Below are positions 36,871-40,943 of a stretch of 64,000 nucleotides of DNA, piece after piece. The first letter of the stretch is position 1. Each line of letters opens with the position of its first letter. The position numbers were made by a program, and so were the translations under genes. Source of the stretch: Dehalococcoidia bacterium (GTDB lineage: Bacteria; Chloroflexota; Dehalococcoidia; Lucifugimonadales; Lucifugimonadaceae); assembly GCA_022819585.1 (NCBI GenBank), contig JAJEGY010000030.1:1-64000 (forward strand), in the 5' to 3' direction. The notes under the pieces are model-generated. The model was not told the DNA's origin and searched no databases. It saw nothing but the letters and a program-made list of their open reading frames with translations.

Positions 36871-37884
36871 ATGGTTGAGGGTTCTGATAGTCAATCTTGT
36901 TGCGTGCCGGATCGGGGTGAGGAATCTGCCGTTTTTGCCGCAACACCCAAGCAAGTTGCGGCAAATTCGTCTGAACTTGCCGGAGATTCGGGGTGTCTAG
37001 CGGCAGAAAACGGCAATAATGCGGCTAGTTTTGATCTGGTCAGACTGGACGGCGGCAACTTTCGGATGGGGACGGATGATCGGAGGTTTCCGGCTGATGG
37101 GGAGGGACCGGTGAGAGAGGTGTCGGTGGATGGATTCGGGGTGTCGGCGAGGTTGGTGACGAATGAGGATTTCGATGCTTTTGTTTCGGCGACTGGTCAT
37201 GTGACGGATGCTGAGAGATTCGGTTGGTCGTTTGTGTTTAAGGATTTTGTGAGTGCTGAGGTTGAGCGTGAGGTGTCTCAGGTGGTGCAGGGATCGGAGT
37301 GGTGGTGGCGAGTTGATGGATCGTATTGGCGAGAGCCGGAGGGGCTGGGATCGGGTGTCGAGGATCGTGGGGATCATCCGGTGACGCATGTTTCGTGGAC
37401 GGATGCGATGGCTTATTGCGATTGGGTCGGTGGTCGATTGCCGACGGAGGCGGAGTGGGAGTTTGCGGCGCGTGGCGGGTTGGATCAGGCGCGGTTTGCG
37501 TGGGGTGATGAGCTGGAGCCAGAGGGTGAGCATATGTGCAATATCTGGCAGGGGGAGTTTCCGAGTGTGAACACGTTGGGGGATGGGTGGCATGGGACTT
37601 CGCCGGTGGGTAGTTTTTCGGCGAACGGGTACGGTATCTACGATGTTGCGGGGAATGTTTGGGAGTGGTGCTCGGACTGGTTTTCGGCTTCGTTCCATCG
37701 GAACGCGCGGAGGGTCACGAGGGAGAATCCGAAGGGGCCGCGGAATGGGTCGGCGAAGGTTATTCGCGGTGGGTCGTATCTGTGTCATGACTCTTACTGC
37801 AATCGGTATCGTGTGGGGGCTAGGACTGCCAATACGCCGGACTCGAGCACGGGGAATTTGGGTTTCAGGGTTGTGGTGGGTTGA
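36871..37884 (+). CDS. Formylglycine-generating enzyme (FGE/SUMF1-type sulfatase-modifying factor)
   Basis: RLDGGNFRMGTDD...LPTEAEWEFAARGGL...GNVWEWCSDWF...VIRGGSYLCHDSYCNRYRVGARTANTPDSSTGNLGFR; retains the C-x4-C active-site pair. Confidence 0.93.
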   Translation: MVEGSDSQSCCVPDRGEESAVFAATPKQVAANSSELAGDSGCLAAENGNNAASFDLVRLDGGNFRMGTDDRRFPADGEGPVREVSVDGFGVSARLVTNEDFDAFVSATGHVTDAERFGWSFVFKDFVSAEVEREVSQVVQGSEWWWRVDGSYWREPEGLGSGVEDRGDHPVTHVSWTDAMAYCDWVGGRLPTEAEWEFAARGGLDQARFAWGDELEPEGEHMCNIWQGEFPSVNTLGDGWHGTSPVGSFSANGYGIYDVAGNVWEWCSDWFSASFHRNARRVTRENPKGPRNGSAKVIRGGSYLCHDSYCNRYRVGARTANTPDSSTGNLGFRVVVG

Positions 37885-37959: not shown

Positions 37960-38051
37960 GGATTGCCCCCCACCCTCCCCTGTGTGATGGGGTATTATCT
38001 CTGTAGCTGAATAGTTGCTTCTCAAGGAAATGGAAGCGGGAGACTTAATCG

Positions 38052-39695
38052 ATGTATCTGCTTGAAGTGCTGAACCCTGTTGCGCAGCAGCGCGGGTTGA
38101 TGAACACGATGAAGATCAATGAGCGTCCGGAGACGCTCGATGACCGGACGGTAGGTCTGATCTGGAGCGGGACGCATGGGGGTGATGTGGCGTTGAAGCG
38201 TGCGGGTGAGATGATCCAGGAGCGTTTCAAGAATGTGCGGGTGAATTTTTACACAGGCGGGAACTATCCGGCACCGCCGCCGATCGTGAGGCAAGCAGGA
38301 GAGGAGTGTGACGTCGTCATCGGCGCCACGGCTGATTGAGGGACCTGCGCGTCGTGGATGGTCCACGACATGATCGAGATCGAGAAGATGGGGAAGCCTG
38401 CGATCCCCATCGTGTCTGGTCGGTTTGAGGAGGATGCGATTGCGAGTTCACGGGCGTTTGGGATGCCTGACTTGCAGTTCGTGATCGTTCCTCGTATATA
38501 TCGGAACTTGGCGATTGAGGAGTGTGTTTCGCAGACCGAGGCGGCGATAGATGACATCGTCGATGTGCTGACGGTTGATCAGCAGCATGGCCGAGGGGTG
38601 CGTGACGAGACGGCGGAAATACAGCGGTTCGAGGGTGAGGACCGGTGGGATGCGATCCTGAAGATGAATGAGCAGTGGTTGATGCGGGACTGGGGAGACT
38701 CATTCATCTTGCATCCGCCGACTGCCGAGGCGGTGGATGAGTTGATCGCCGGTACGAACATGGATGCAGACGAGCTGGTGTGCGACATGCCGCCGGGATT
38801 TGGTCTGGCAACCGTCGAGAAGATCGCCATTAACGCGGCTATGGCCGGTGCGAAGCCGGAGCATATGCCTGTGATTATGGCAGGCGTGAAGGCGCTGTCG
38901 CAGATGGGATCGCATGGCGGGAAGTCGCTGCTGATGTCGACGAGTCCGCAAGCTCCCTTGCTGGTTGTGAATGGTCCGATAGCGAAGGAGATCGGGATCA
39001 ATGCTCGGTCGGCGCTCGGACCCGGTCGGGACAATGAGGTGAACATCACCATCGGTCGTGCTTTCTCGTTGTGTTTGCGGAACATCGGTTACTGGTATCC
39101 CGGTCAGATGGATATGGACACGATCGGAACGACGCGTAAGTTCGTGCACTGCATCGCCGAGAATGAGGACATGAGCCCTTGGGAGCCGTTCCATGTGAAC
39201 CAGGGCTTCCGTGCCAGCGAGAGCACGGTTAGCGTGTTCATAACCAACGGCGAACTAGATGTCCAAGACCAAGGCAACACCAAGGCCGAGGACCTGCTCA
39301 AGACGCTGGCTTACGGCTCGATATTCGGCACTCGTGGGCTGGGGATGCATGGCGGCGGCCAGAGGCTGATTCTGATGCCTCCTGATGTCGCCGGGCCTGT
39401 TGGTGATCAGGGCTTCTCGAAAGACGACGCCCGAGGCTTCATCCATCTGAACGCCAATCACAGCTTGGGCAAGATGATCCAGTACACGCCGTTGAAGGGC
39501 GAGGCTAGGATCAGTCCGATGTGGCGCTGGTTGGAGGACCTTACCGAGAAGGAGCGGCTGGAGATCGAGGTTCCGGTGGTGGACAACCCGGAGAGCTGGC
39601 ACATCGTGGTCGTTGGCGCTGATAGGGCTAAGACCGCGGTGATGCCTACTGGGGATGGAGTGGCTACGGTGGGGGTTGATCAGTATCAGGTTTGA
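38052..39695 (+). CDS. UGSC family selenoprotein, Sec encoded by in-frame TGA 38337-38339
   Basis: ORFs 38052-38339 and 38358-39695 share one frame, separated only by TGA; readthrough gives ...EECDVVIGATAD-U-GTCASWMVHDMIEIEKMGKPAIPIV... Confidence 0.88.
38351..38369 (+). promoter_or_regulatory. Candidate bacterial SECIS hairpin
   Basis: GTCGTGGA-TGG-TCCACGAC, 8 bp perfect stem starting 11 nt after the TGA; apical loop starts 20 nt after it. Confidence 0.65.
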
Positions 39696-40305: not shown

Positions 40306-40698
40306 TCAAAGGGTTTCGATCCTGACACCTTCGATGCGTTCGAAATCCCTGCGGTTGTTGGTCAATACGGTCAAGTCGTGGTACACAGCCGTACAACCTA
40401 TCAATAGATCGAAATCGCCGATCGGCGTACCTCGAGTTTGAAGGCGAGCTCGTTGTTCCCCGAAGAGTCGGCAAATTTCGTCGTTAAGTCCAATGATTTC
40501 GAAATCGCTCAAAAACTCTAGAAGTATGACTTCGGCATTTGCAGGTTGCGGCGACCTGAATACGCCATGGTAGAGTTCAGCCACAGAAATTGCGCTAATG
40601 GCGATTCCTTCTGGTGCTCGTAGTTGCAGCTGCTCCGCGATGGCTCGTGACCCTCGGAGGTTGTGGATCGCCCAATCGGAGTCGACGAGGAATTTCAC
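40306..40698 (-). CDS. PIN-domain VapC-like toxin
   Basis: MKFLVDSDWAIHNLRG...ISVAELYHGVF...PIGDFDLLIGCTAVYHDLTVLTNNRRDFERI. Confidence 0.9.
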   Translation of the reverse strand: MKFLVDSDWAIHNLRGSRAIAEQLQLRAPEGIAISAISVAELYHGVFRSPQPANAEVILLEFLSDFEIIGLNDEICRLFGEQRARLQTRGTPIGDFDLLIGCTAVYHDLTVLTNNRRDFERIEGVRIETL

Positions 40699-40943
40699 TT
40701 CAGTTCTGGGAGTGGTCGGCTACGCGATTCGGTAGATCGATATGCGTAGATCTCGTCGATTAATTGTTCGCAATCTACGATCCCTTTCCAACCTCCGAAG
40801 CTTGATCGCAAGCCCCTGAATTCGGATTGTCCTTCTTCGCGCTCCGACACGGAGATCACGACTTCGGCACCTTCGTCGAGGTCAACCGGAGTTTCCAGTT
40901 TGAATACGCCATTTGAGTAGGTTGCTTTGAGATTTTCAATCAT
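40695..40943 (-). CDS. DUF104-like antitoxin
   Basis: MIENLKATYSNGVFKLETPVDLDEGAEVVISV; 4-nt overlap with toxin gene. Confidence 0.85.
   Translation of the reverse strand: MIENLKATYSNGVFKLETPVDLDEGAEVVISVSEREEGQSEFRGLRSSFGGWKGIVDCEQLIDEIYAYRSTESRSRPLPELK

Follow-up and report, generated by a model that had tools for sequence, protein, structure and literature searches.

Two open reading frames (ORFs), 38052-38339 and 38358-39695, lie in one shared plus-strand frame in the window, the 64-kb stretch of DNA analyzed here (contig C31 of a Dehalococcoidia-like Chloroflexota genome of 2.47 Mb, 93% complete). Does the TGA that parts them at 38337-38339 end a gene, or is it read as selenocysteine (Sec)?

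Results and discussion

One reading frame across an internal TGA

The first-pass annotation had described a single UGSC-family selenoprotein gene misread as two ORFs, and the layout on which it relied was borne out by the sequence. The TGA is followed by the sense codons GGG ACC TGC GCG TCG TGG and then by the ATG at 38358, and the frame is open from 38340 to the stop TGA at 39693-39695. Translation with TGA as Sec gave 547 residues containing the read-through segment GATAD-U-GTC-ASWMVHDMIEIEKMGKPAIPIV that had been foreseen, with Sec96 in the context ATAD-U-GTC-ASW. The start residue is common to the homologs in the alignment, and the gene is single-copy in the host genome. We consider it very probable that 38052-39695 is one gene whose internal UGA is read as Sec and which encodes a two-domain redox protein; Sec decoding and membership in the UGSC family, taken as one claim, appear nearly certain from sequence comparison. 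One gene that standard annotation divides into two is thereby put right. The features are collected in Table 1.

Table 1. Coordinates of the predicted selenoprotein gene and its parts in the window.
Feature	Position	Strand	Basis
Putative UGSC-family selenoprotein gene, 547 codons including Sec96	38052-39695	+	Read-through frame; PF24696, 105.9 bits; homologs with the same TGA
Possible ribosome-binding site GGGAG, 9 nt upstream of the ATG	38038-38042	+	Inference from sequence
N-terminal UGSC domain, residues 6-174	38067-38573	+	PF24696 match; AlphaFold2 model; Foldseek
In-frame TGA, predicted Sec codon (residue 96), U-G-T-C motif	38337-38339	+	Sequence; homolog alignment
Cys99, proposed resolving Cys	38346-38348	+	U-G-T-C motif
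SECIS-like hairpin: GUCGUGGA (38351-38358), loop UGG (38359-38361), UCCACGAC (38362-38369)	38351-38369	+	Hairpin analysis
C-terminal 'Unknown_1' domain, about residues 205-535	38664-39656	+	Homologs; stand-alone and adjacent-gene forms in other genomes

The product belongs to the UGSC family

The proposed family identity was upheld when the read-through product was searched against profiles: PF24696 (UGSC) matched with 105.9 bits (E=3e-30) over residues 6-174, continuously across the TGA, against a gathering cut-off of 25. The short NCBIfam equivalog NF041046 (UGSC_fam) scored 96.2 bits and did not reach its curated cut-off of 125, so the protein is placed in the broader PF24696 family and not in that equivalog. 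Residues U96-G97-T98-C99 fit the pattern Sec/Cys-G-x-C, and across a set of 20 sequences U/C96, G97, C99, and E111 do not vary. The Thr that had been noted at the third motif residue was confirmed; relatives also vary there (UGSC, UGTC, UGAC, UGGC, UGQC, UGDC), and UGTC in place of UGSC is ordinary variation.

The gene is a further member of a known family, for which both the UGSC selenoprotein and its fusion to Unknown_1 were described in 2008 (Zhang & Gladyshev, PMC2398784). The Global Ocean Sampling (GOS) data held 255 Sec sequences of this family, which is among the commonest selenoproteins of aquatic metagenomes (PMC2398784), and a 2026 review still lists it under proteins of uncharacterised function (PMC13188914). 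Our protein shares with the UGSC-containing selenoprotein the N-terminal domain, the U/CxxC position, and the occurrence of Sec and Cys forms, but it differs in having UGTC and in missing the NF041046 cut-off. Its C-terminal domain is here provisionally equated with the Unknown_1 of the paper.

TGA and Cys codons exchange at residue 96 of homologs

In the 77 readable loci from named genomes, codon 96 is TGA in 69 and TGC or TGT in 8, which is the Sec or Cys occupancy for which the first-pass annotation had proposed to check this column. The recurrence of TGA at the homologous codon in dozens of independent assemblies, together with the uninterrupted PF24696 match, puts the observation well outside what chance would give. 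Two further loci, L072 (whose contig begins after the TGA) and L073 (Ns), are uninformative and are not counter-examples. Nonomuraea, Sphingomonas, and Oryzicola account for the Cys forms, along with a few metagenome-assembled genomes (MAGs). A homolog match was found in 90 of 294 same-class genomes, many of them matching the C-domain alone; the six closest (65-72% identity) each carry one internal TGA, which is shared by the full-length homologs of 65-90% identity. The nearest named relative, L054 (record title Chloroflexi bacterium SB0664_bin_6), is a TGA form 90% identical to our protein, and the records of other relatives are titled SAR202, Dehalococcoidia, and Entotheonella.

Against L054, synonymous and non-synonymous substitutions numbered 38 and 6 before the TGA and 23 and 4 after it. 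This predominance of synonymous changes on both flanks indicates that the region after the TGA is translated under constraint, in keeping with the earlier view that the gene is no decayed pseudogene. All 14 sampled TGA-form genomes had selA and selB above cut-off, whereas selA above cut-off was absent from five of the eight Cys-form genomes (exact-test probability of about 0.002, calculated by hand from the counts).

Two further observations concern other genomes. A groundwater Chloroflexi MAG (JACPQD01) holds at least 8 Sec-type UGSC paralogs (L078, L079, L080, L082, L083, L084, L114, L120). MAGs titled Bordetella parapertussis (L116, L128, L132) carry Sec-type UGSC genes nearly identical to environmental betaproteobacterial ones, and this species label looks doubtful.

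The host genome encodes the Sec machinery

A Sec gene had been taken to imply SelA, SelB, SelD, and tRNA-Sec in the host, and all four were found in its genome: one tRNA-Sec with anticodon UCA (69.7 bits against a cut-off of 47) and profile matches for SelA (537 bits), SelB (336 bits), and SelD (375 bits; C8:52811-53740). The selD gene has an in-frame TGA of its own (...CAGUAGKLS...), which makes it a second host selenoprotein gene that standard annotation would also split. It had rightly been remarked that the window lacks sel genes: the one selD-profile match there (C31:10603-11367) scored 77 bits, far under the curated cut-off of 125. The UGSC gene would mean that this sponge/marine Chloroflexota lineage employs selenium beyond SelD; a literature search for SAR202 with selenoprotein found no paper.

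A SECIS-like hairpin follows the UGA

The predicted hairpin, a feature absent from the first-pass annotation, begins 11 nt past the UGA and has a perfect stem of 8 bp closed by the UGG loop. Its energy of -12.6 kcal/mol gave p=0.006 against synonymous recoding of this gene, a modest value because the protein sequence already permits much of the stem. Under the same recoding, the combined p was 5.5e-14 for 20 diverged TGA homologs compared with 0.62 for three diverged Cys forms. Across 87 distinct TGA homologs, the stem forms 6.9 of its 8 pairs on average, and shifting the partners by 1-3 positions lowers this to 1.5-3.8; because kin sequences are counted repeatedly in this sample, the diverged set tests the hairpin better. 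TGA forms had a mean local hairpin energy of -10.2 kcal/mol, and Cys forms one of -4.0. Compensatory stems were seen as GUCAUGG/CCAUGAC in L029, L101, and L103, as GUUCCUGG/CCAGGAAC in L037 and L040, and as GGCGUGGA/UCCACGCC in L041. A strong hairpin at this exact place was absent from the TGA homologs L097, L104, L105, and L130, and half of the homologs have no G at either of the first two positions of the loop. As judged by recoding and folding of the sequences, codon choice does not account for the full strength of the hairpin, which in Cys forms is weak, and the predicted element at 38351-38369 is a hairpin of the SECIS type of bacterial selenoproteins.

Other readings of the TGA

The existence of Cys homologs and the origin of the window in a draft assembly would agree with a TGA that arose in sequencing or assembly where the true codon, such as TGC, is one for Cys. 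However, the corresponding codon is TGA in 69 loci of unrelated assemblies, L054 among them, and also in the six same-class relatives, and an error is further opposed by the SECIS-like hairpin and by a genome that makes Sec; we regard it as extremely improbable. That the gene is a pseudogene with a nonsense mutation, or that the TGA is a true stop and the downstream ORF is translated on its own from the ATG at 38358, is very unlikely as well. The in-frame ATG 18 nt past the TGA would suit such a restart, but no Shine-Dalgarno-like sequence is evident upstream of it, and the UGSC domain extends across the TGA; this codon falls at a helix start in mid-fold according to the PF24696 match and the AlphaFold2 model. 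The Cys homologs are continuous, and purifying selection on both flanks of the TGA speaks against a pseudogene. Reassignment of TGA in the organism, for example to Trp, would likewise leave the in-frame TGA open in reading, yet the same gene terminates in TGA, homologs put Cys and not Trp at the column, and the genome has tRNA-Sec, SelA, SelB, and SelD; the probability of this reading is negligible. All four alternatives (sequencing error, pseudogene, true stop, and reassignment of TGA) are refuted.

Predicted fold of the N-terminal domain

The AlphaFold2 model (m4191b4efed0b, mean pLDDT 83.8) has an N-domain of five alternating strands and helices, with the Sec position predicted at the start of the helix that follows the third strand. 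The best Foldseek folds were WrbA and flavodiiron protein, and none was thioredoxin. The N-domain is thus predicted to be flavodoxin-like, by which only the general fold class is meant since the TM-scores were low. Neither the protein nor its profile had a significant match in sequence searches of the PDB.

A thioredoxin-like fold was supposed for the UGSC family in 2008 (PMC2398784), and a thioredoxin-fold thiol oxidoreductase would fit the UxxC redox motif, which is common to our protein and the thioredoxin-like selenoproteins. In L053, moreover, an apparent thioredoxin-like CxxC domain (by eye; no Pfam match) takes the place of the UGSC domain ahead of the same C-domain. The thioredoxin fold has a beta-alpha-beta-alpha-beta-beta-alpha core with UxxC at the first helix, whereas the model and the Foldseek matches give an alternating beta/alpha order, flavodoxin-like, with Sec after strand 3. 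The Pfam search of the protein also returned no thioredoxin family, and we think a thioredoxin-fold function improbable.

The C-terminal domain and its partners

A Pfam search of the C-domain returned no family. The domain occurs as a stand-alone protein (L047, L048, L050-L052), as a separate gene after a UGSC gene (L041, L044, L045), and, in L053, behind the different N-terminal domain. In L049 (1013-2950, minus strand), a single frame encodes the UGSC domain and the C-domain together with the catalytic chain of a ferredoxin:thioredoxin reductase (PF02943, 60.6 bits). This mix of architectures supports the idea that the two domains are redox partners, the Sec domain working for the C-domain. 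A Foldseek likeness of the C-domain to class I fumarase was rejected as weak (best E 2.7e-4, TM 0.25-0.29); the Cys of AGC is Ala here, so an iron-sulfur lyase is not claimed.

Possible relation to the selenium domain of GrdB/PrdB

GrdB and PrdB are the selenoprotein B of glycine/betaine/D-proline reductase (PF07355). Comparison of the Sec segment by hhalign with GrdB-family profiles, built from PF07355 proteins of Chloroflexota genomes, gave a probability of 96.7 over 74 columns only, and 84.2 with the four UGTC columns masked, against 0.4-0.5 for reversed-profile controls. The aligned segment has the form D-A/V-V...U-G-T/S-C...E-I-E-x-x-G-x-P-x-x-x-I, followed by PHPLG in some members. The remaining protein is unrelated, however, and UxxC here lacks the third Cys of UxxCxxC. 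The PF07355 (GRDB) Pfam model did not match the protein up to E 10, a PF07355 gene was not found in the host genome, comparison of the C-domain with the GrdB profile gave 0.1, and a search of the GrdB-family profile against the PDB retrieved no relevant structure. On the profile evidence, the selenium segments of the UGSC protein and GrdB/PrdB likely share an origin, which is not family membership. If true, the link would give the UGSC family a testable chemistry; it is the part worth pursuing and is more interesting than the gene itself.

More speculatively, and in our estimate rather unlikely, UGSC/Unknown_1 proteins could be selenium-dependent reductases of a hitherto undescribed class, found widely among aerobic and uncultured bacteria, that combine a GrdB/PrdB-type selenium domain with an unrelated substrate domain and in some lineages are re-reduced by a fused ferredoxin:thioredoxin reductase. 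The flavodoxin-like fold, the GrdB/PrdB similarity, and the ferredoxin:thioredoxin reductase fusion were not found in the papers examined.

Among Chloroflexota ORFs, the PF07355 (GrdB-like) L133-L138, L143-L146, and L150 end exactly at a TGA. Read-through continues them into UGTC, UGSC, UPLC, UPIC, and similar motifs, which suggests that ORF calling has cut Sec genes short.

Possible mechanism and gene context

SelA, SelD, and tRNA-Sec of the host would make Sec-tRNA, and SelB would bind the hairpin just past the UGA and deliver Sec-tRNA, so that translation would run on to the TGA at 39693. The product would carry the redox pair Sec96-Gly-Thr-Cys99 in a flavodoxin-like N-domain before the C-terminal domain, and it is probably a Sec/Cys-dependent reductase. 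The Sec96 selenolate may attack or reduce a small substrate that the C-terminal domain holds or that lies near it. Cys99 may then resolve the intermediate, giving a selenenylsulfide, and a donor of the thioredoxin or ferredoxin type may re-reduce the Sec/Cys pair as in the selenium domain of GrdB/PrdB, whose description (PMC13188914) is the basis of the analogy. The setting could be catabolism of an imported organic compound. We put forward this chemistry and its catabolic setting tentatively.

The commonest families among 144 ORFs neighboring family members (simple ORF calls, two genes per side only) were SBP_bac_5 (10), TctC (9), ABC permeases (7), and CoA-transferases (4), and this richness in solute-binding proteins, permeases, and CoA-transferases suggests a catabolic role. 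No transporter adjoins the gene in the window, where the neighbors are alcohol dehydrogenase, formylglycine-generating-enzyme-like, and MaoC-like genes. The window and L054 have in common the gene order gamma-glutamyltransferase, TIM-barrel protein, alcohol dehydrogenase, UGSC, which was not found at the more distant loci examined alongside L054. By eye, 36871-37884, directly upstream of the selenoprotein gene, resembles a formylglycine-generating-enzyme-type protein, and 40306-40943 (minus strand) a small gene pair like a PIN-domain toxin and its antitoxin.
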